12,992 nucleotides of DNA from Candidatus Poribacteria bacterium (GTDB taxonomy: Bacteria; Poribacteria; DTPJ01; WJIO01). Of the stretch, positions 1,465 through 12,992 are shown in pieces (the stretch's first letter is position 1; each line of letters starts with the position of its first letter). The stretch spans positions 1 through 12,992 of the forward strand of contig WJIO01000281.1 of the NCBI GenBank assembly GCA_014730235.1, written 5' to 3'. A program made the position numbers and the translations under genes. Below the pieces are notes generated by a model, which worked only from the letters and a program-made list of their open reading frames with translations, was not told the DNA's origin and did no database searches.

Positions 1465-4400
1465 CTATTTTGCCAGGACAGTCTTCCTTATAGCACTCAG
1501 ATCACCTGCTTTTATACTGTAAAAATACACTCCACTGGCAACCTTCTCACCCACTTCATTCTTGCCATCCCAGTATGCGGCTTTGTCCTTAGCCACGTAG
1601 TATCCAACTGTTTTCTGACCCAGATTCAGGGTGCGCACCAGTTGACCTGTTGAAGAGTATATCTTAATCTCAACATGGGCATCTTCACTTAAATGATAGG
1701 GTATCCATGTCTCTGGATTGAAGGGATTTGGATAATTCTGATAAGCCGCGCTTTTTTTTGGCGGGAACGTTATAGACAGATCAAAGCGTGTTACCTGTCC
1801 AAAATCTACGGTCGGTGGTGCAGCAGCTTTTATTGTGTAATCTTCTATGTAGACAAATAATTCAAATTCCTTATCTACAGGCACATTTACACTGTAGAAA
1901 CCATCATATAAATTGCATACAGATTTTATTTCATCATTCACCTTTACTATAACAACAGCATCTTTATCAGCAATATCTTCTCCGTCTACCTGAACCCGTC
2001 CCCATATCCTTTGAGGGATATCAGGTATATCTTTGGAAAAATGATGTTCTCTCATAGCCAGAGACGGCGCAGCCATAGCGGTAGGGGCATTTAAATCCCA
2101 TTCACAGTCTTCTTTAGCCCATATCCAGTAACCATAACCGGGACCCATACACGTCAGGCTGTTTACCCATTCCGGAGAATAAGGAATATATATTAACCAA
2201 CCCGCGTTGATGTTAAATTTCCACACCGAATCAATTTCATCTACCACTGAATTCATACACTCAGCAGCGCTTTTAGCCTCTGTGGAACTATACCCCACCA
2301 TGTTCCATTCATTGCCTTTCAGGAAAATGTTTGTATTTTCCAGTGATGTTCCATCCATTTTCAGCATCCCGGGTTCAGCCATATCAATATAGTAACCCCG
2401 ACCCGGGATAATCTCAGTCATATTGCTTAAGCCTTCAGGGAAGTGTATAGTCCATCCTGCAACTGGATCATAAGCCCAGATTGATCTGTATTTGCCATCA
2501 ATAGAATCCAGAACCACGTCGGGAGATGTGTCTGACGGCATCAGTGGAAGTGAAATCAGGTTCCATCCCCGGTTAAGACTGTGTATGGAGTTGAAATACA
2601 CATAAGGTTCTTCTGGAATATCCTGTATCTTAGCATCTTGTGCCAGTATGACTGATTCATTGCCACGAGTGACTTCCAGTTTATAGGTATCATTTGGATC
2701 TGCTCCCGGTTCAGGTATCACCTTGATGGAATAATTACCCATAATTGCATCGGGTATAAATATGCTGTCAACCGCTCCAGCTTGAGTCTGCTTATAAACA
2801 GCCCGGGGGATTTCAGAATTATTCAGGTCAATAGTTTTCATACATGGGTCTGTAACTATAAGGTCTACTGGCGAGAAAGACTGTATAATCAACGGAATAT
2901 TGACATTTTGCAATGCCAATGGGCTTTCATAAGCTCCCATATCCGGGTCAGTACCCGGTGGATTTGGTCGTGGATTGCCGTCCAGATCTTCCAAGGGCAT
3001 ATATATAGAATCAGCTTCCGTTAAATATAATCCTGAGCCGATACATGGGCTGTTATTGGAAAGGTGATAATCGCCGTTATCCGGGTCTACAAACGCGGGG
3101 TTTGCGTCTATGTTTCCATCAAGCCAGTTTACTGTGCCACTACCGACAACGCTTTCCTGCATATTCTGGATATTTGAATAAGAAATATCAACGACTGATC
3201 CCCTGGAATTCCATTCTACAGCGCCTATTTCTGAAATGCCGCTATTCCGGATTATTGTATTGATTATTGTTGATTCCGACCCCATCAAAGATATAATATA
3301 AGTATCATCTGGACTTGTATATCCTATTGAATTTCCAGCGATAGTATTGTTGATTAGAGTAAGTGAAGAATGATGACAGGTTATGGCTGCTCCAGGGAAA
3401 AAATCCGCATATATCCAGACCGGTAAATAGTTATTAATAATAAGGTTATTCGCCATAAATACGGAAGCATCTTCGATATATAAACCTCCTCCGGTATCCG
3501 CTCCGTTGTTGCTTATGACGTTTCCAATTATTTCCGGTGATGCCCCGTATCTACAGTGAATTCCTCCACCTGTATTAGCCGAGTTATCATGAATAAAGTT
3601 ATTAATTATCAATGGAGAACAACCGCTTCCTGATAAGAAAATTCCACCGCCTCTGGTGAGAGTACCTGAACTTATATTATCAGTTATAACATTATTTTTT
3701 ATAGTTGGCGAGGAAGTGCAGTAAATACCTCCACCGGTATGCATACCCAGCTTGATAAGCCAGGCTCCTTTAATTGTAAATCCATCAAGTACCGAATGTC
3801 GGTCTTCTCCATTCTGGAAAATAAACCCCCTATGATAATCCGTATAAGGGCTAGCATCTTCTTCTGGAAAGACATCAATAATACAATTTTCCGGCCCATT
3901 TTCTGACTTTACGGTAATGGCCTTCCCTTTAAAATCTATATCCCAATTACCTTTTCCTTTATAAGTACCATCCTGCACAACTACAATCTTGCCATCAGTT
4001 GCCTCATCTATACCTTTTTGAATTGTGTTATAGGGGTTCTCCGGTCTGCCGTCGCCGTTTACATCATCCCCTGCGGTGGATACATAGATATAAGGTAAAG
4101 ACTCGGGCAGATCATTTTCATAAGCTCCCATATCCGGCATTGAGCCTGCTGGATAAGGGCGTTGTTTACCATCCAAATCTTCTATGGGCATATCATCATC
4201 AGGAAAACCTGCACCAATACACGGGCTGTAATCTGAAAGGTGATAATCACCTGGCCCTGCGAAAAGTGGTTTTTTGCCAATATTTCCATCAAGCCAGTTG
4301 AGAGTGCTGTTATTTACAATAAAATTGTCCTGCATATCTGGAGTATATTCGTCGGTATTATGAATATTCGAGTAGGAAATATCAACGATTGATTCATTAA

Positions 4401-5331
4401 GACGTATGAATGTATGTTCAGTGTTAAAGATAATTGTATTTAATATTGTCGACTCAGAATTCTGGAAAAATATAGAATGACGGGATGGTGGGTTACCGTT
4501 TTCTGTGGCATTTTCCGCGATAGTATTGTTTATTAGATTAAGCGTAGAATCAATACATGTAATCCCCGCTCCGTTGTAAACCCAATCCGTATCATCATAA
4601 GCAAAGTTATTCTTTATGATATTACCTGCCATTAATACAACTGCCTGCTGAATTTTTATGCCCCCTCCATCATCCGCTCCGTTACTGCTTATAATGTTTC
4701 CGATCATTTCCGGCGAAGCATCATTTTCACAGTAAATTCCTCCACCCTCACTGGCCGAATTATCATGGATAATATTATTAATTATCAATGGAGAGCAACC
4801 GCTTCCTGATAAAAACATACCGCCACCCTTAGTCTGGGTATCTAAATTTGAATTGTCGGTTATAATGTTGTTTTTAATAGTCGGTGAGGAATAGCAAAGA
4901 ATACCACCGCCAAAACTTATATTAGTATTACTAAGTCTCACCTTTTTTATAGTAAAGCCATGGAGTATTGAATCCCTGCCCTCTGCATTTTGAAAAATAA
5001 AACCCCTGTTATAAACGGGGTCATCGTTTTGCGTTGGAGTAACATCAATAATACAATTTTCCGGCCCATTCTCCGACTTGATGGTAATGGCTTTGCCTTT
5101 AAAATCAATATTCCTGTTACCAATTCTTCTATACACTCCATCCCTTACAAGCACAGTTTGGCCATCAGCGGCTGCATCAATGGCATCCTGTATGCGAATA
5201 AAGGGATTTTCAGATGTGCCAAGATAGGGTGGATCGCTGTTCTCAGCAACGTAAATAATGTCATCAGCAAAGACAGTAAGGCAAAAATGGATAAATAAAA
5301 GTATTGAAATAAGCAATGATTTTTTACACAT
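1465..5331 (-). CDS. Secreted tandem beta-helix protein with FlgD-like/T9SS-type C-terminal sorting domain
   Basis: Residue numbers here count from an upstream in-frame ATG at 5340. The chosen start is the fourth residue (ATG at 5331), which has AAGGGGG 9 nt upstream. Residues 4-25 form a Sec signal peptide with likely cleavage after LTVFA. Two homologous modules follow (about 27-407 and 416-806), each a DUF1565-like opening (IYVS/IYVA...NPF/NPY..IQ..ID.A.DG..V.V.DG.Y) and then a right-handed parallel beta-helix of PbH1-type repeats (SSPTIKNN, SPLIINN, GGGI). Each ends in SPCIG.G and PDMGAYE. Residues 924-1082 hold two GWNLISLP/GYWI-type repeats, 1110-1190 a carboxypeptidase-regulatory-like beta-sandwich, and 1199-1291 a FlgD-like sorting domain with NYPNPFNPETWIPY and VASGVYFY. 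The protein is probably exported and displayed on the surface or released. Polysaccharide binding or cleavage is possible, but no catalytic site was recognised. The stop is TAG. Confidence 0.85.
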   Translation of the reverse strand: MCKKSLLISILLFIHFCLTVFADDIIYVAENSDPPYLGTSENPFIRIQDAIDAAADGQTVLVRDGVYRRIGNRNIDFKGKAITIKSENGPENCIIDVTPTQNDDPVYNRGFIFQNAEGRDSILHGFTIKKVRLSNTNISFGGGILCYSSPTIKNNIITDNSNLDTQTKGGGMFLSGSGCSPLIINNIIHDNSASEGGGIYCENDASPEMIGNIISSNGADDGGGIKIQQAVVLMAGNIIKNNFAYDDTDWVYNGAGITCIDSTLNLINNTIAENATENGNPPSRHSIFFQNSESTILNTIIFNTEHTFIRLNESIVDISYSNIHNTDEYTPDMQDNFIVNNSTLNWLDGNIGKKPLFAGPGDYHLSDYSPCIGAGFPDDDMPIEDLDGKQRPYPAGSMPDMGAYENDLPESLPYIYVSTAGDDVNGDGRPENPYNTIQKGIDEATDGKIVVVQDGTYKGKGNWDIDFKGKAITVKSENGPENCIIDVFPEEDASPYTDYHRGFIFQNGEDRHSVLDGFTIKGAWLIKLGMHTGGGIYCTSSPTIKNNVITDNISSGTLTRGGGIFLSGSGCSPLIINNFIHDNSANTGGGIHCRYGASPEIIGNVISNNGADTGGGLYIEDASVFMANNLIINNYLPVWIYADFFPGAAITCHHSSLTLINNTIAGNSIGYTSPDDTYIISLMGSESTIINTIIRNSGISEIGAVEWNSRGSVVDISYSNIQNMQESVVGSGTVNWLDGNIDANPAFVDPDNGDYHLSNNSPCIGSGLYLTEADSIYMPLEDLDGNPRPNPPGTDPDMGAYESPLALQNVNIPLIIQSFSPVDLIVTDPCMKTIDLNNSEIPRAVYKQTQAGAVDSIFIPDAIMGNYSIKVIPEPGADPNDTYKLEVTRGNESVILAQDAKIQDIPEEPYVYFNSIHSLNRGWNLISLPLMPSDTSPDVVLDSIDGKYRSIWAYDPVAGWTIHFPEGLSNMTEIIPGRGYYIDMAEPGMLKMDGTSLENTNIFLKGNEWNMVGYSSTEAKSAAECMNSVVDEIDSVWKFNINAGWLIYIPYSPEWVNSLTCMGPGYGYWIWAKEDCEWDLNAPTAMAAPSLAMREHHFSKDIPDIPQRIWGRVQVDGEDIADKDAVVIVKVNDEIKSVCNLYDGFYSVNVPVDKEFELFVYIEDYTIKAAAPPTVDFGQVTRFDLSITFPPKKSAAYQNYPNPFNPETWIPYHLSEDAHVEIKIYSSTGQLVRTLNLGQKTVGYYVAKDKAAYWDGKNEVGEKVASGVYFYSIKAGDLSAIRKTVLAK

Positions 5332-5340
5332 AAAAATCAT

Positions 5341-5661: not shown

Positions 5662-6780
5662 ATGATGAATTTTATCAGACAGAAGCTTAAGTTCCTTATG
5701 TGGTTCGTTGCCATATTTTTTGTTGCTGGGCTTTTCTTTGTAGGCGGTCGCACTATTGGATTCGAATGGATCGTTAAATCCCTGCCAGTAAGTCTTCTGG
5801 TAAGTATGCCCGGTTGTGCTCGTTCAGCAGGGATAATAATGCGGGTTGGTGATTATAACGTGGATCTTGAAGAATTTCAGCGTGTGCGGGAAAACACTAT
5901 TGAAATTGCCAGATTTCAATATAAAGACAATTTTAATACATATGCAAAAAATATAGACTTTGACCAGGAAGCCATTGATTCTATTACAAAATATGCTTTA
6001 TTACTTCAGGAGGCAGATAAAAGACGTATATATGTAAGTAAATGGGAACTTGATAAGGCCATCAGAGAATTTCCATATATTATGCCCGATGAAGCCGCAT
6101 CAAGAGTTAAACTATATCCCTACTATTCCATGGCAAAATCTCAGGATGGCAAATTGAACCAGAACACATTTAAATATCTGCTGTCAACCTACGGAAAAAT
6201 TACTCCAGAAGAATTTTCAGAGGAAGTTGAAAATGCTGTTCGTATTTCCAAACTCAAGGAAGTAATAAGCGGCTCTGCGTTGGTTTCGGATCTGGAGATA
6301 AAGCAGGAATATAAAAAACAGAATGAAAAAGCTACAATCAAATACATAGAATTGAAACATTCTGATTTTAGAAAAGAAGTTAAGGCTTCTGATGCAGAAA
6401 TTGAGGAATATTTCAAGGAAAATATTCTCGATTATAAAGTAGAAGATAAGGTTAATATAAGCTTTATTAAAATTGATCCCAAGATTTTTGAGGATAAAAT
6501 ACAGATTCCCGATGCTGAAGTGAAGAGCTATTATGAAGCCAACAAGGAAGAGGAATATTTCGAACCAGAAAAAGTTAAAGCGCGTCATATATTAGTCAGG
6601 ATTGATTCTTCAGCATCAACAGAGGACAAAACGAAAGCCAGAGCCCTCGCGGAAAATATCCTTGGAGAAGCTAAAAAGCCCAATGCGGATTTCCCGGCTA
6701 TTGCTGAAAAGTTTGCCAATGAACCCTTTGAGGTTAAACATGAGGATCTGGGATATTTTGAAAGAGGTAAAATGGTTTAA
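5662..6780 (+). CDS. SurA/PpiD-like peptidyl-prolyl isomerase, N-terminal part ending at an in-frame TAA
   Basis: As it stands this frame gives 372 residues. Residues about 9-29 are a hydrophobic membrane anchor or signal anchor (FLMWFVAIFFVAGLFF), so the rest would lie in the periplasm. Residues about 57-210 resemble the SurA N-terminal chaperone domain (RVGDYNVDLEEFQRV...). Residues about 304-372 are the first part of a parvulin (PpiC-type) domain: VKARHILVRID, then DLGYFERGKMV. The TAA at 6778-6780 replaces the codon usually reading Lys, Gln or similar in the family pattern MV.PFE.AAF, and the missing half of the domain is encoded immediately after in the same frame. The product as written would be an anchored chaperone-like domain with a broken isomerase. 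The start is supported by AAGGAG 11 nt upstream. The gene is not a PpiD ortholog that I can name with certainty. Confidence 0.8.
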   Translation: MMNFIRQKLKFLMWFVAIFFVAGLFFVGGRTIGFEWIVKSLPVSLLVSMPGCARSAGIIMRVGDYNVDLEEFQRVRENTIEIARFQYKDNFNTYAKNIDFDQEAIDSITKYALLLQEADKRRIYVSKWELDKAIREFPYIMPDEAASRVKLYPYYSMAKSQDGKLNQNTFKYLLSTYGKITPEEFSEEVENAVRISKLKEVISGSALVSDLEIKQEYKKQNEKATIKYIELKHSDFRKEVKASDAEIEEYFKENILDYKVEDKVNISFIKIDPKIFEDKIQIPDAEVKSYYEANKEEEYFEPEKVKARHILVRIDSSASTEDKTKARALAENILGEAKKPNADFPAIAEKFANEPFEVKHEDLGYFERGKMV

Positions 6781-7728
6781 CCCTTTGAAAATGCCGCCTT
6801 TTCCCTTTCTCCGGGTTCAGTAAGTGGTGTGGTTGAAACTGTCTTTGGCTATCATGTGTTAAAAGTTGAAGACAAAAAAGCTTCTCAAACTAAACCCCTG
6901 GAAGAAGTTAAAGCACAGATTGTTAAAAAACTCAAAGAGGATCAGGCGTCAGTGGAAGCAAGACAAAAGGCTGACGACATTCAATATACAATTATGTCCG
7001 AGGAAAGCCTGCAGGCTGCTGTAGATGCAAATCCGGATTTGGAATTAAAAGTGCAGGAAACAGGTTTTTTCGCTAAAAATGATTTTATACCTCAAATTGG
7101 TCCTAATTATACCTATAAGGCAGTCGCTGATGAAGCCTTTAAACTAAAAGAAGGTGAGATCAGTAATCTGGTTGATGTCACATCTTATGGTGATAGACTT
7201 ATGGGGTATTTTATTTTTAAACTCATAGCTAAAAAACCCGGTGGTATACCCGAGCTTTCTGAGGTTAAGGATACAGTGGTAAGCGATCTTAAAAAAGAAA
7301 AATCTGAAGAGTTTGCTCTTAACAAGGCAAAAGCAATTATGGCAGAATTAAATAATAACCAAGAATTTGAAAAGGTAGCGGAAAATAACGATTTAGAAGC
7401 TATCGAATCTGAACCTTTTACATTAAATGAAAGAGGTTACATTCGAGCAAAATCCGGTGCGGTAAACTCAAAGGAAGTAATGCTTAAATCTTTTGGGATG
7501 AAAAAAGATGAGGTTGCCGGTCCCTTGGAAGGTCGGAATTCTGTGTATATTATAAAGCTCATAGAATATGAAGACGCAGATGTGAGTGAAATCGCACAAA
7601 ATGATGAAGAAAAAAATGCTATCCGGGATCAGCTTCTCAGGCAAAAAGAGCAAAAAATGTATGATTCCTGGTATCAAAGTGCCCGGAAAGATATTGTTAT
7701 AAGATCATTTATTCCATCAACTTCCTGA
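6781..7728 (+). pseudogene. C-terminal continuation of the interrupted SurA/PpiD-like isomerase
   Basis: This segment is in the same frame as the upstream half and directly continues the parvulin domain: PFENAAFSLSPGSVSGVVET, then VFGYHVLKVEDK. A second degenerate isomerase-like unit follows (GFFAKNDFIPQIG...AFKLKEGEISNLV...YFIFKLI), then a charged helical C-terminus, as in PpiD-type proteins. If the TAA were sense, the whole protein (5662-7728) would have 688 residues, a normal size for the class. The first available internal start is GTG at 6829, which lacks a clear ribosome binding site and would begin inside the parvulin fold, so independent translation is unlikely. No frameshift or further stop is seen, and the end (TGA) overlaps the convergent maf gene by 20 bp. 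It could be a recent nonsense mutation, a base error in the assembly, or readthrough. Confidence 0.75.
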
Positions 7729-8278
7729 TTTTCTGAACAAGACTTGATAATGGTAAGCCCACAACATTAAAATAGCAGCCTTCTATTCTATTGACAAAAG
7801 CCGCCGCTCTTCCCTGAATACCATACGCTCCTGCCTTTCCCATAGGTTCTCCTGTAGCGATGTAGGAGCGTATTTCATTTTCCTCCAGGCTTCGGAACTT
7901 AACTAAAGTTTCTTCTACCCATGTTTCTATTTGATCCGTTGCAGCGTCCATCAAAGCCACGCCGGTTATTACAGTGTGGGTTTTGCCTTCCAGTTTACTC
8001 AGCATACGAAAGGCATCCGCTTCATCTTCGGGTTTCCCCAGAGCTTCTTCATCCGATAAAACCTGGGTATCAGCACCTATTATAATCCCATCATCCATGT
8101 TCACTGCCACATCCTGAGCTTTTAAAAGGGCAAGACCCTCTGCGTTAGCATAGGGATAACCTGGATATATATTATATTCTTTGATCTTACTTGGTATAAC
8201 CTCAAATTCGAAACCAATCTGCTTGAGTAAACGTCTGCGTCTGGGTGATGCCGAAGCCAGTATTATTTTTTTATACAT
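7709..8278 (-). CDS. maf: Maf family nucleotide pyrophosphatase (YhdE type)
   Basis: The 189-residue protein belongs to the Maf family, cytoplasmic enzymes that hydrolyse non-canonical or pyrimidine NTPs (dTTP/UTP in the YhdE branch) to NMP and pyrophosphate, and that are linked to septum inhibition in B. subtilis. Visible motifs: the N-terminal ILASASPRRRRLL loop (residues 6-18) that binds phosphates, the general base Asp70 in GADTQV, Lys82 in GKP, KTHTVITGVAL (99-109), and EPMGKAGAYGIQG (144-156) followed by FNVVGLPLSSL. The family usually has Asp where Gly147 stands (EPMDKAGAYGIQG). Length is normal. ATG at 8278 is preferred over the TTG at 8281 because GGAG sits 7 nt upstream. The last 20 bp overlap the end of the convergent isomerase gene. 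A gap of about 105 bp separates it from the upstream radical-SAM gene, so it may or may not share that transcript. Confidence 0.92.
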   Translation of the reverse strand: MYKKIILASASPRRRRLLKQIGFEFEVIPSKIKEYNIYPGYPYANAEGLALLKAQDVAVNMDDGIIIGADTQVLSDEEALGKPEDEADAFRMLSKLEGKTHTVITGVALMDAATDQIETWVEETLVKFRSLEENEIRSYIATGEPMGKAGAYGIQGRAAAFVNRIEGCYFNVVGLPLSSLVQKIRKLME

Positions 8279-8285
8279 CAAAAAA

Positions 8286-8383: not shown

Positions 8384-9208
8384 TTAATTCTGAAATATAC
8401 TTTCTGTATCTTTACTGCTGTAAGGAGTACCGGCTTTAATATGATATTGAATGTTATTTTTTTTACAGAAATTTATTACCTCACCGGCTTTTGTTTTATA
8501 AAAATTATTATTGCTCTTGAATTTGGAAACATCGATGTTATAATTCATCTTACCAAATATTATTTTATCCACAAAGCTTACACGTTCCAGAAGCTTCACG
8601 ATATTCACAGAACCCGGATCAAGGTTTGGTGTTGGATATGGCTCTATGCTAATCCATGTTTTTGCTCCTGAATCATAAAGATTTTTCAGGTATTGTATCC
8701 TTTTTTGGTAGGATGCAGAAAAAGGCTCAAATTCTTTTCTGAATTTTTCCTGCAACGATACAAGGGTTATACCGTATTCGTTATCAGGCATAAGTTGCCG
8801 GCTTAAAAGATTATCAGGATAAACTCCTTTTGTAAGAGTTGTTACCCTTATACCTTCTCTGTTCAGCCTTTTTATGATTTTCAATGTCATATCAAGAACT
8901 TCCGGAACTAACGCCTCTTTTTCCGAATCATACATAAACGGATCAGTCATAAAACATAGATGCACCAGGTCCAGTTCTTTTCCATATCTTTTTATTTCTT
9001 TTTCCAATATTTGCAAGGCATTTGCAACGAGTTTTGGTTTTCTCCAGTCATTATAGTCCTTTGTTCTGCCAAATCTCTTGCTCAGCATGTAGGCATAGCA
9101 TGGAAATTTGCACCCGTGCATACATCCTGAAACGTGATTTATAGTCCAGTTTCCGTATTCAACGTTTGATTTATACAGGAGAGATTTTCTCGTTATTTTC
9201 TGAATCAA
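8384..9208 (-). CDS. Radical-SAM/SplB-like protein with a CX3CX3C cysteine motif (probable TcmP partner)
   Basis: The 274-residue protein has the outline of the SplB-like (spore photoproduct lyase-related) radical-SAM branch: a three-Cys motif near the N-terminus (Cys29, Cys33, Cys37 in GCMHGCKFPCYAY), then LCFMTDPFMYD (84-94, like the TDPYQP segment), VTTLTKG (122-128, like iTKs) and WISIEPYPTP (185-194). In canonical radical-SAM enzymes the cysteines are spaced CX3CX2C; here one extra residue (Pro36) makes it CX3CX3C. An iron-sulfur cluster is still likely. The start is TTG at 9208, backed by GGAG 8 nt upstream and by the lack of any other usable start before the Cys motif. It lies 4 bp after the TcmP-like gene, so the two are almost certainly cotranscribed and translationally coupled. 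The substrate is unknown; kinship with SplB hints at nucleic acid. The stop is TAA. Confidence 0.8.
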   Translation of the reverse strand: MIQKITRKSLLYKSNVEYGNWTINHVSGCMHGCKFPCYAYMLSKRFGRTKDYNDWRKPKLVANALQILEKEIKRYGKELDLVHLCFMTDPFMYDSEKEALVPEVLDMTLKIIKRLNREGIRVTTLTKGVYPDNLLSRQLMPDNEYGITLVSLQEKFRKEFEPFSASYQKRIQYLKNLYDSGAKTWISIEPYPTPNLDPGSVNIVKLLERVSFVDKIIFGKMNYNIDVSKFKSNNNFYKTKAGEVINFCKKNNIQYHIKAGTPYSSKDTESIFQN

Positions 9209-9212
9209 ATTG

Positions 9213-10202
9213 TTATCTCCTGTTTCTGCTTATCTTAGCAAATCTCATTATACTATCCCTGTAATAATCTTCGCCGAATATAGGAAGCAAAGGTTCGCTC
9301 TGATTGCGCTTCTGTCTTGCATATATATCATGAACGACATTAGCGACTTTTTCATTTTTACATGCGAACAAAAGATAGTATATTATATCGTTTCTGCTGG
9401 GATATTTCATATCATAAACCACGACTTCCAGATTGTGGGAGATAAAAACTGCATCAACATAATCCTGAAGCAAATCCACATCCAGAATCCTGTTACCTTC
9501 GGTGTCTACAATATCAATGTCCTCGCCAATAAATTCCAGCAAAGTATCAACAGATTTTTTTTCCTGAGAAGATACATCGAAACCACCGTAAACTTTTTTT
9601 GCTATGCCTGTTGTCCTTCGTATTCCTTCCAGCATATAATTGAGGATTATATCTTTTGGGTTTCTCAATCTTACAAGTTTTTCAACAGTATTTCTTCTAA
9701 TCTTTATTCCGTAGGGATCAATGAAAGTAAAGATGGGATTTTTGCTGGAATTTGTTATCTGGCGTATGACTTCATCCACATGATTATTGCAGTCTTCGTT
9801 ATAACAGCTTATCCTGACTATATCGATCAGTTGAGGGTTATCTTTAATGATTTTATCTATTCGATATCTTAGAATATCATAATTACTCTGTTTGCCTTCG
9901 ATAAAGAATAAATTTATATGAAGACCCGGTTCCAGTCTATCAGCTTTTTGGGCTATCTCCTCCAGGAATATCAATGGAGAGCCGCTGATTTCACTGCCTC
10001 TGTCAGAATAATAACCTCTTCCAGCAAAAAGGTCTATAACATACCAGTTTTTGGCCACCCAGTTCTGTTTTCTCAATATTCCATTCCATATTGTAAGCCA
10101 GACATCAAAGCATTTTCTGAGTATCTCCAGTTTTTCCCTGGTATGTGGTCTTTTGCTTATATCCCAGCTTTCGTCATTGCTTCCATCTGGATAATTTGTC
10201 AT
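9213..10202 (-). CDS. tcmP: Three-Cys-motif partner protein TcmP (methyltransferase-like fold)
   Basis: The 329-residue protein matches what I remember of the TcmP family, which is named for standing next to a protein with an unusual three-cysteine motif, exactly as here. It opens with the family signature W..SKRPHTREKLEILRKCFDVWLTI (13-38). YVIDLFAGRGYY (54-65) resembles SAM-binding motif I, GSPLIFLEE (74-82) follows, and LFFIEGK (98-104) supplies the strand-2 acidic residue. FTFIDPYGIK (158-167) resembles the (D/N)PPY-like motif IV of amino-methyltransferases. A helical C-terminal half follows. Methylation of an exocyclic amino group is a possibility, not shown. GGAGG precedes the ATG by 13 nt, a rather long spacing. 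The smc stop is 29 bp upstream, so the order smc-tcmP-radical SAM looks like one operon. The last codons before the TAA (AGG AGA) supply the Shine-Dalgarno of the next gene. Confidence 0.82.
   Translation of the reverse strand: MTNYPDGSNDESWDISKRPHTREKLEILRKCFDVWLTIWNGILRKQNWVAKNWYVIDLFAGRGYYSDRGSEISGSPLIFLEEIAQKADRLEPGLHINLFFIEGKQSNYDILRYRIDKIIKDNPQLIDIVRISCYNEDCNNHVDEVIRQITNSSKNPIFTFIDPYGIKIRRNTVEKLVRLRNPKDIILNYMLEGIRRTTGIAKKVYGGFDVSSQEKKSVDTLLEFIGEDIDIVDTEGNRILDVDLLQDYVDAVFISHNLEVVVYDMKYPSRNDIIYYLLFACKNEKVANVVHDIYARQKRNQSEPLLPIFGEDYYRDSIMRFAKISRNRR
9217..9220 (-). promoter_or_regulatory. Shine-Dalgarno of the radical-SAM gene, inside the tcmP end
   Basis: GGAG on the minus strand is read from the last two sense codons of tcmP (AGG AGA) and lies 8 nt before the TTG at 9208. 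It establishes the TTG start and suggests translational coupling of the pair. Confidence 0.7.
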
Positions 10203-10231: not shown

Positions 10232-12992
10232 TCAGTCATTCGCTGCCGCTTGAGAAGTGCTCTCCTGTTTTTCGTCATCTATTTTCAGAGACACCAGCTT
10301 TGATATTCCCGATTCTTCCATAGTAACACCATATAACACGTTGGCAATCTCCATAGTTCTTTTGTTATGTGTTATTATAACAAATTGTGTGTTTCTGGAA
10401 AATTCCTTCAGCATACTGGTGAAACGTCCCACATTGGCATCATCCAGAGCTGCATCCACCTCATCCAGAAGGCAGAATGGACTTGGTTTTATTCTGAAAA
10501 GGGCGAACAGTATGGCAATAGCTGTAAGGGTTCTTTCGCCGGAAGATAACATGGCTATGGATTGGGGCTTTTTATCAGGAGGTCGGGCTATTACATCCAC
10601 ACCTGATTCCAGAACATCCTCCTCTCCTACCATAACCAGTTCTGCCTGTCCGCCGCCGAAAAGTTGTTTGAATAATTCCTGAAAGTTCGTGTTTACAGAC
10701 TCGAAGGTCTCCTGAAGACGATCTCTGGATTCCCTATTAATTCTCTGGATAATATTATACAATGAATTTTTTGCTTTTGTCAGGTCTTCCTTTTGGGTTA
10801 CCAGCAAGTCATATCTTTCTTTCTGCCTGTTATATTCATCCACAGCCGCTAGGTTTACCGATCCCATTTTCTCCATACGCTGGCGAATTTCCTCTATCCT
10901 GTTGACTAAATCCTCCTCATTCTCTTCATAAGTCAATTCTTTTTCATCCTGTTTTTTTAGATCGTCCAGAGAGATGCCATATCTCTCCTGCATTCGGTTT
11001 ACCAGTGAATCCAGGTTCAACTGTAACTGTGTTCTGGTTACTTCCAACTGGTACTTTTCTTGTTTAATCTGGTCTGATTCCTTCCGGTAATCTTTGAGAG
11101 AAGCTTCACCCTTGGTTAAATCTACCTGGGCTTTCTGGCGTATGGATTCATTACGAGATATTTCCTTTTCTATATCCGTCCTCTTCTGGAAAAGCTTTTC
11201 AAGTGAATTTTCCTTTGTCTTTATCTGGCTTTCTATTTCAGTTACGGCATCTTTGTCGGATGTAACCGACTTCTGATATGAATCCAGATTTTGAGCTATC
11301 TTATCTCGATCTCTTTCCAGGGATTTCAACCTTTCCTGTATACCTTTGACCTGCTGCTTTTTTGAGGCAAGCTGGACTTTCATATTTGTGCATTGTTGTA
11401 AAAAAGCATCACGCTGTTGGGCTTTTTGTCGGTATTCTTCCTGAAGAATATTTATCTTTTTTGTAATTTCCGCGCTTTGTTTTTCCAGCTTCTGAGCTTC
11501 TTCCTGCAATCGCTCTTTATTCTGTTCCAGCTTTACTATCTCCCTTTCAAGCTCACCGGATTCTGAGTTTATCACTGATATCTCTTTATCAAGCCTGTCA
11601 AGACGCTGCTGACTTTGGGATACGTCTTTCTGAACACCTGTATATTTGATCTGCCTTTTTTGAATATCTCTGGTGATTTCTTCATGCTCTTTTCTCAGAG
11701 AACTGACCTGTTTTTTCATTTCTGAAAGTTGATTATTTAGCTTTTTTAGATTATTATCTGATTGGACTAACTGTTTCTTTAATTCATCAATTTCCCTTGA
11801 CCTTCTTAATAATCCAGCGCTTTCAGAGCCTGTTCCTCCTGTAATGCTTCCATTGGATAATATAACCTGACCATCCAGGGTTACGAATTTAATATCATTC
11901 TTATTATCATCCAGTATTGATTTTAACAGGGATATAGCTGTGGTTATATCCTTGACAATGAAAGTTTTGTCCAGCAAATAGCTTATAAGGTATTTGTATT
12001 TTTCATCATACTCCACCAATTCAGATGCCAGTATACCATCGATCAAGGGGTTTTGGTTCTGAGTATTTTCATTTTTCATGTTTTCCAGGGAAAACAAGGT
12101 TGCTCTTCCGTTTTTTGAATTCCTTAGATATTCCAGGACATTAAGGGAGTCATCAAGAGTATCCATAACAATTCCCTGGACATTGTTCCCCAGGGCAGAT
12201 TCAAGAGCAAGCTCATATTTCGGCTGTGTTCGTATTATTTCAGCAACAGTGCCGCATATACCATGAAAAGATGAGTCTTTTGATTTTTTAGCTTTACCCA
12301 GTATGTTCCTTACTCCTGTGCTGTAGCCCTCATAGGCCTGCTGGAGTTCTTGTAAAGACTGCAATCGGGATGATTTTGCGTTCCTTTGACGTTCAAGCTC
12401 CCGAAATTCTTTTTCCTTATGTTCTACCCTGGATTGCAATTCCCTGCGTCGTTTTTCAATTTCATCCTGTTTATCCCTGAGGGATTTAATCTGGCTTTCG
12501 CTTTCATCGAGATTTTTCTGAAGATTTGTCAATTCATTTTTAAGACCAGCTTTTTCCTTGCGATAATTCTGAGCGTTAGTCAAAAGACGTTCAGACCTGG
12601 CTATGAGATAATCCAGTCGACCATCAGCAGATGAAAGCTCATTCTGGGCTTTGGCTTTCCTGTTAAGCAGATTTATTGTCTGGGTTTTAAGGTCTTCAAC
12701 AGCTTTTTCAGCGTCGGTGGCATGTTGGGTAACTTCATCAGCGCGATTCTGTGCCATGTTTAATTCTTTTTCCTGAGTAGATATACTTTCCTGTAATTTA
12801 CCATGTTCTACATTGACCCCAACAATTTGTGTTTCTGATTCATCCAACTGCTTTTTCAGCTTGTCCATATGTTCTGCCGCCTGCTTTTGCTGCTTTTGTA
12901 AATTTGATCGTCTTTCTTTTAATACAGCAATGTTGCTTTCGGTTTCTTCAACTGAATTTTGTGTATTTCTTTGTTGGACTCGCAATTCATTA
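10232..12992 (-). CDS. smc: Chromosome segregation protein SMC (partial, N-terminal ATPase part outside the window)
   Basis: About 920 residues of the SMC ATPase are present, and the frame stays open at the right edge. The missing part (roughly 270 residues by comparison with the usual length near 1190) includes Walker A and the start of the first coiled coil. Numbering from the TTG codon at 12985, residues 1-215 are the end of the N-terminal coiled coil and about 220-390 the hinge (HGICGTVAEI ... LDGQVILSNGSITGGTG). Residues 395-740 are the returning coiled coil, rich in Lys, Glu and Gln. The C-terminal head follows: MGSVNLAAVDEY (707-718), signature LSSGERTLTA (813-822), Walker B FCLLDEVDAALDDANV (837-852) and the H-loop ITHNK (871-875). 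The signature has Ser where LSGGE is usual. SMC works as a homodimer with ScpA/ScpB to organise and segregate the chromosome. The stop is TGA, 29 bp before tcmP. The TTG at 12985 is an internal Leu codon, not a start. Confidence 0.95.
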   Translation of the reverse strand, partial: NELRVQQRNTQNSVEETESNIAVLKERRSNLQKQQKQAAEHMDKLKKQLDESETQIVGVNVEHGKLQESISTQEKELNMAQNRADEVTQHATDAEKAVEDLKTQTINLLNRKAKAQNELSSADGRLDYLIARSERLLTNAQNYRKEKAGLKNELTNLQKNLDESESQIKSLRDKQDEIEKRRRELQSRVEHKEKEFRELERQRNAKSSRLQSLQELQQAYEGYSTGVRNILGKAKKSKDSSFHGICGTVAEIIRTQPKYELALESALGNNVQGIVMDTLDDSLNVLEYLRNSKNGRATLFSLENMKNENTQNQNPLIDGILASELVEYDEKYKYLISYLLDKTFIVKDITTAISLLKSILDDNKNDIKFVTLDGQVILSNGSITGGTGSESAGLLRRSREIDELKKQLVQSDNNLKKLNNQLSEMKKQVSSLRKEHEEITRDIQKRQIKYTGVQKDVSQSQQRLDRLDKEISVINSESGELEREIVKLEQNKERLQEEAQKLEKQSAEITKKINILQEEYRQKAQQRDAFLQQCTNMKVQLASKKQQVKGIQERLKSLERDRDKIAQNLDSYQKSVTSDKDAVTEIESQIKTKENSLEKLFQKRTDIEKEISRNESIRQKAQVDLTKGEASLKDYRKESDQIKQEKYQLEVTRTQLQLNLDSLVNRMQERYGISLDDLKKQDEKELTYEENEEDLVNRIEEIRQRMEKMGSVNLAAVDEYNRQKERYDLLVTQKEDLTKAKNSLYNIIQRINRESRDRLQETFESVNTNFQELFKQLFGGGQAELVMVGEEDVLESGVDVIARPPDKKPQSIAMLSSGERTLTAIAILFALFRIKPSPFCLLDEVDAALDDANVGRFTSMLKEFSRNTQFVIITHNKRTMEIANVLYGVTMEESGISKLVSLKIDDEKQESTSQAAAND

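Follow-up and report, generated by a model that had tools for sequence, protein, structure and literature searches.

The TcmP/radical-SAM locus

The window, as the term is used here, is the whole 12,992-nt stretch of DNA that was analysed. On its minus strand, the gene order is smc, TcmP, radical-SAM and maf. A partial smc gene (10232-12985) lies upstream of the gene for a three-Cys-motif partner protein (TcmP; 9213-10202, 329 aa, ATG start), which is followed by the gene for a radical-SAM protein with a CX3CX3C motif (8384-9208, 274 aa, TTG start) and, downstream of the latter, by maf (7709-8281). The two central genes, which we call the pair, are on the same strand and 4 bp apart, as an earlier note on this DNA had described them. 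The spacer (9209-9212) and the ribosome-binding-like AGGAGA together occupy positions 9209-9220 of the minus strand; the ribosome-binding-like ACAGGAGATAAC precedes the TTG start of the radical-SAM gene and sits within the end of the TcmP gene.

The GC content of the pair is 0.35-0.37, versus 0.39 for the whole window. No defence island is visible around the pair in the window, where the flanks are smc and maf. In the sole same-order genome, smc and maf are on separate contigs, each with other neighbours, such that a histidine-kinase gene is found by maf, and another gene by smc, at the place where the pair would be expected. This arrangement is consistent with lateral gain of the pair, but falls short of empty-site proof.

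Family and fold of TcmP

TcmP is a common annotation with no known function, and 35 of the 97 genomes sampled contain a TIGR04474 match above the cut-off. The earlier note had assigned the first gene of the pair to this family, with the absence of a TcmP match as the case against. The protein scores 136.2 bits against TIGR04474 (cut-off 53) and covers model positions 1-262 of 263, and both of the motifs quoted for it, YVIDLFAGRG and FIDPYG, are found. It also matches the PADLOC model PDC-M30A (E 9.7e-26, 89 bits, residues 20-186; no PADLOC threshold applied).

The AF2 model of TcmP (pLDDT 87) bears out the methyltransferase-like character that had been proposed. Its closest folds are those of RlmJ, the 23S rRNA A2030 N6-methyltransferase (Z 15.5; 221 residues, 3.5 Å), and the tRNA methyltransferase Trm1 (Z 14.1), and a sequence-profile search of the PDB likewise ranks RlmJ first, if weakly (E 0.07). 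The DxxAGxG motif, a GSPLIA-like loop and the DP motif of RlmJ align with TcmP, but identity to RlmJ and Trm1 is just 11-14%, and the catalytic DPPY of RlmJ contrasts with DPYG in the window TcmP and DP[YFA] among its relatives. In one TcmP clade, motif I is degraded (DCMxNSG), and the TcmPs of L060 and L061 have DPAG in place of DPYG, so that methyl transfer is perhaps not general among TcmPs.

A single-sequence search of solved structures gave nothing useful for TcmP or for the radical-SAM protein, and a pattern scan of viral contigs using the window TcmP alone gave no matches. Two further hits were set aside: a profile match to Octarellin, a designed protein, was dismissed as chance, and a weak PHROGs match of TcmP to a head-morphogenesis family was taken in the same way.

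Motif, family and fold of the radical-SAM protein

The second protein bears GCMHGCKFPCYA (the motif GCMHGCKFPCY, residues 28-38; 9090-9122, minus strand), in which the cysteines are arranged as C-MHG-C-KFP-C, i.e., CX3CX3C, as had been noted from the sequence. Cys29, Cys33 and Cys37 are the presumed [4Fe-4S] ligands. The protein matches the Pfam family Radical_SAM (PF04055) with 32.0 bits (gathering score 29.5), but the canonical CX3CX2C of the radical-SAM superfamily is absent. The unusual spacing is not an indel or a sequencing error, since the GCxHGCx[YF]PCYA-type arrangement, extra proline included, is invariant in 28 aligned proteins, which makes it a constant trait of a coherent family. 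Also invariant in the alignment are the three cysteines, the proline before the third, Tyr38, Cys85 (in LCFxTDPF), Glu189-Pro190, Cys248 and Lys258. The same CX3CX3C spacing occurs in the radical-SAM enzyme NifB (PMC9692996), so that radical-SAM chemistry is possible with this non-canonical motif. NifB is itself a moderate fold match to the model of the window protein (Z about 14.9), with an unrelated genomic context.

The AF2 model (pLDDT 90) has radical-SAM enzymes as its top fold matches and is closest to spore photoproduct lyase (SPL, SplB; Foldseek E 1.7e-6; Z 20.4, 2.8 Å, 234 residues), and the next fold family, viperin, follows at a Z of about 16, which agrees with the SplB-like identity suggested earlier. 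In the SPL structure 4fhc, the cluster motif is equally placed and the CY at the third cysteine aligns; the differences are the low identity (14%) and the insertion of Pro36 in the window protein just before the third cysteine. The column of the hydrogen-donor cysteine of 4fhc (Cys140) contains Phe86, and the invariant Cys85 is one residue earlier, in an alignment that is weak (14-17 bits), so that the register is uncertain and could be off by one.

By sequence, the protein is remote from the named families. It has no match to the Pfam SPL family (PF20903) at E 0.1, and the best relative scanned reaches 15.9 against a cut-off of 27. The nearest named families are PA0069, Rv2578c and radical SAM mobile pair B (NF033668, NF038135 and TIGR04470), at about 40 bits each, far under their cut-offs of 360-430 bits. 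SPL-like radical-SAM relatives (L017 and L087) have the spacing CX3CX2C, unlike the window protein, and the only PHROGs match is to a family of no known function, phrog_13321 (8e-22).

The fold invites the reading that the pair repairs lesions in DNA or RNA, such that the SPL-like enzyme would reverse or process a damaged base in nucleic acid presented by TcmP, and mobile elements would keep the pair as a means of withstanding damage or attack by the host. SPL is clearly the closest fold, and there is a parallel in Mycobacterium, where we take BCG_2748c to be the counterpart of Rv2735c. A TcmP domain has been reported in BCG_2748c (PMC7387457), and Rv2734 and Rv2735c of M. tuberculosis share with recX and recA a gene cluster that mitomycin C induces (PMC5057432). 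Induction by damage would, however, fit prophage and defence genes equally well. The hydrogen-donor cysteine column of SPL is not matched in the window protein (in the weak alignment above), the neighbours of the pair are restriction and other defence genes without repair genes, and the distribution is patchy and mobile (both below), and we consider repair quite unlikely.

The viperins, as the second best fold group, suggest that the radical-SAM protein might instead halt phage polymerases by producing a modified nucleotide, with TcmP adding or controlling a step. The defence-gene context of the pair would suit such a role, but the SPL fold is clearly closer, no nucleotide-kinase-type neighbour was noticed, and it counts further against this reading that viperins, to our knowledge, act without a TcmP-like partner. 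It is the explanation to which we give very little weight.

Distribution and coupling of the pair

Scanning viral contigs with a profile of the radical-SAM alignment located 27 close relatives of the protein, and two further relatives are found in human-gut phage scaffolds. In a whole-genome search, the same radical-SAM type is present in 10 of 386 genomes, the source genome included, and the distribution of the pair is thus patchy and mobile. One relative, from Patescibacteria (L015), has the same pair, with a TcmP that is 46% identical to that of the window.

TcmP, as recognised by a TcmP profile built in this analysis, is directly upstream and on the same strand in 37 of the 40 loci of the CX3CX3C radical-SAM type (fusions counted), and the two genes mostly overlap or are within tens of bases of each other. 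The cysteine motif is spaced identically in all of these loci. In two genomes of different families (L096 and L097), they form a single ORF, of 584 and 592 aa, in which each half matches its own family. The proposal that the two genes form one system, which had turned on their adjacency elsewhere, is thus supported by the coupling and by the fusions.

The exceptions are L065, whose contig begins at the radical-SAM gene; L059/L026, a lone radical-SAM gene on a phage-like contig (a 39-kb record without TcmP); and L090 (616-2426, minus strand), where a nucleotidyltransferase gene and a small ORF precede the radical-SAM gene in a genome without a TcmP match. The lone gene and the L090 arrangement imply that TcmP is not always required. 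In L026, the lone gene (3989-4810) is 59% identical to that of the window and is flanked by genes for a primase/helicase-like protein and a phiEco32-like COOH-NH2 ligase; it may perhaps reflect an anti-defence or independent use of the enzyme.

Four loci (L068, L075, L081 and L082; about 2950-4990) have two TcmPs of different clades in tandem before one radical-SAM gene. In these tandems, one SAM motif is degraded (DCMCNSG) and the other is intact (DAFAGTG), and the two proteins perhaps form a heteromeric TcmP. The two halves of the pair also differ in how far they vary: the median identity over 276 locus pairs is 63% for the radical-SAM protein and 20% for TcmP, a contrast that is partly due to sampling because the loci were gathered by radical-SAM similarity.

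Relation to other TcmP pairs

Ordinary TcmP loci, of which 30 were collected from related genomes by a search with TIGR04474, mostly have a different partner. In 28 of them, TcmP adjoins a DUF5131-type protein with the spacing CX6CX2C, in one case as a fusion (L050, 629 aa). Of the remaining two, one is cut off, and the other (L058; 173-1228, minus strand) places TcmP by an SPL-family protein with the canonical CX3CX2C (PF20903, 52 bits), which constitutes a third partner type. DUF5131 corresponds to PDC-M30B/M41B in PADLOC (352-364 bits for L031), and the common TcmP pair is therefore the PADLOC candidate system PDC-M30/M41.

The window pair resembles PDC-M30/M41 in its TcmP component, its two-gene layout, its three-Cys partner and the occasional fusion, and differs in the partner itself, which is CX3CX3C rather than CX6CX2C. 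The window partner scores 24 bits against PDC-M41B, over 86 residues or a third of the model (364 for a true DUF5131), and 18.4 against Pfam DUF5131 (PF07505; cut-off 28.9). Because the partner component fails, the window pair falls outside PDC-M30/M41 as that system is modelled. An hhalign comparison nonetheless shows the two partner types to be homologous for most of their extent (probability 90, E 1.7e-6, 206 columns), with the NxV.GC..GC, CYA, LTK and S.EP features in alignment. On these comparisons, the window partner appears to be a distinct lineage that is distantly homologous to DUF5131 and barely caught by the Pfam and PADLOC models. Current defence models all but miss the partner (24 bits in PADLOC), and counts of such pairs are therefore probably too low.

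On a tree of TcmP, partner type requires 5 changes, versus about 23 in shuffles. TcmP partners thus appear to be mostly co-inherited and to have been swapped a few times, with long branches leaving the exact number unsure.

The earlier description of the system as little described holds for the CX3CX3C partner lineage, which is new; the general kind is already catalogued, in that TcmP with a three-Cys protein is known as the PADLOC phage-defence candidate PDC-M30/M41 (PMC10855318). Among 100 P. aeruginosa strains, 32 had a predicted PDC-M30, and 68.8% of these were phage-resistant, a correlation only (PMC10855318). In literature on DUF5131, TcmP, PDC-M30 and radical-SAM defence (chiefly open-access journal papers), we found no experimental study of anti-phage activity for any TcmP pair.

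Genomic neighbourhood in mobile loci

The TcmP/radical-SAM pair travels together across bacteria and viruses, often amid anti-virus genes. A defence-type neighbour is present at 16 of the 28 viral/mobile loci, in 7 by direct scan and in 9 because the neighbour is visibly the same. Type III Mod and Res genes lie by the pair in L064 and L027 (direct scan), and visibly the same type III genes do so in L065, L068, L075, L080, L081 and L082. HsdM is found by the pair in L070 (direct scan) and likewise in L072, GmrSD in L073 (direct scan) and likewise in L076, and a type II methyltransferase in L078 (direct scan) and likewise in L077. In L066, genes for a McrB-like AAA protein and McrC are directly upstream of TcmP, and L079 has a ThsB TIR-like (Thoeris-like) gene by the pair (both by direct scan). 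Other loci are in phage structural regions, including L060 and L061, where terminase genes lie by the pair. Usually, a small Cro/C1 HTH gene is ahead of the pair.

A related arrangement is seen in Gordonia phage Easley, where TcmP and DUF5131 adjoin tail to tail in the lysogeny region, with the immunity repressor directly ahead of TcmP and the integrase nearby. The lysogeny region, by the repressor and integrase, is a usual site of prophage-borne defence genes.

We ruled out that the pair serves a single type III restriction-modification system as its modification arm, as many different systems adjoin the pair. A broader form of modification has to be weighed, in which the pair would hypermodify a base of self DNA, or of tRNA or rRNA, and in this way keep restriction or ribotoxins from harming the carrier or its translation. 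The frequent direct adjacency to type III Mod/Res and HsdM points this way, as do the terminase genes by the pair in phages (L060 and L061), the position of the lone radical-SAM gene in a phage-like replication region (L026) and the RNA-base methyltransferases RlmJ and Trm1 as nearest TcmP folds. Against it, the pair is accompanied by many defence types rather than by one restriction enzyme, its DP motif differs from the DPPY of amino-methylases, one TcmP clade lacks an intact motif I, and a fixed housekeeping-type modifier would be expected to vary far less than TcmP does. On balance, we think it unlikely that the pair modifies self nucleic acid. The earlier note had left modification, repair and defence side by side; among the three, genomic context favours defence.

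A possible two-part anti-phage module

The explanation that we favour, with about even confidence, is that the pair is one functional unit and a mobile anti-phage module, belonging to a divergent lineage of the pairing of TcmP with a three-Cys protein, in which TcmP would provide recognition and the radical-SAM protein would carry out nucleobase chemistry. It builds on what was observed directly: family membership, coupling, fusion, the predicted folds and the defence-gene neighbourhood in mobile elements. TcmP, with its RlmJ/Trm1-type fold, would bind the nucleic acid of an invader, or a modified base in it, and so confer specificity. The SPL-like radical-SAM protein would hold a [4Fe-4S] cluster by its CX3CX3C motif, cleave SAM, and perform a radical reaction on the nucleobase bound by TcmP, and the altered nucleobase would block replication or expression of the invader. 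Iron-sulfur binding, SAM cleavage, nucleic acid as the substrate, the assignment of recognition and chemistry to separate proteins, and any effect on phages are what we infer from the family, fold and neighbourhood results.

The contrast in identity between the two proteins (partly a matter of sampling, as noted) is what would be expected if TcmP were a recognition component under diversifying pressure and the chemistry were left to a shared radical-SAM component, and the four loci with two TcmPs per radical-SAM protein are counted in favour of the same division. Together with this contrast, the fact that the nearest folds of both proteins act on nucleic-acid bases leads us to favour the two-part module. 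Genomic context supports a defence role, and the substrate and the reaction are our proposal. Weighing against the module are the place of the window pair between smc and maf, outside any visible defence island, the altered motifs of some TcmPs, the radical-SAM genes that occur without TcmP and, within the weak alignment, the unmatched donor-cysteine column of SPL.

A bolder version, which we offer as possible if doubtful, is a radical-SAM form of nucleic-acid restriction. The SPL-like CX3CX3C enzyme would alter invader nucleobases, and TcmP would be an interchangeable, fast-evolving guide that has been swapped several times among CX6CX2C, CX3CX2C and CX3CX3C partners. We know of no described defence system that works by radical modification of invader nucleic acid, and such a mode of action, if true, would be a new defence principle. 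The CX3CX3C lineage, the TcmP fusions, the tandem TcmPs and the restriction-system neighbours provide well-defined constructs for probing TcmP function.

Other genes in the window

A gene for a SurA/PPIC-type chaperone (5662-7728, plus strand) has one in-frame stop, at 6778-6780, and its frame is intact in the same-order genome (L119); the stop could reflect a pseudogene or an assembly error. A minus-strand gene at 1465-5340 encodes 1291 aa; its product, which contains two long repeat regions and has an FlgD-like/secretion-sorting C-terminal tail (PF13860, PF18962), is probably a secreted beta-helix protein.
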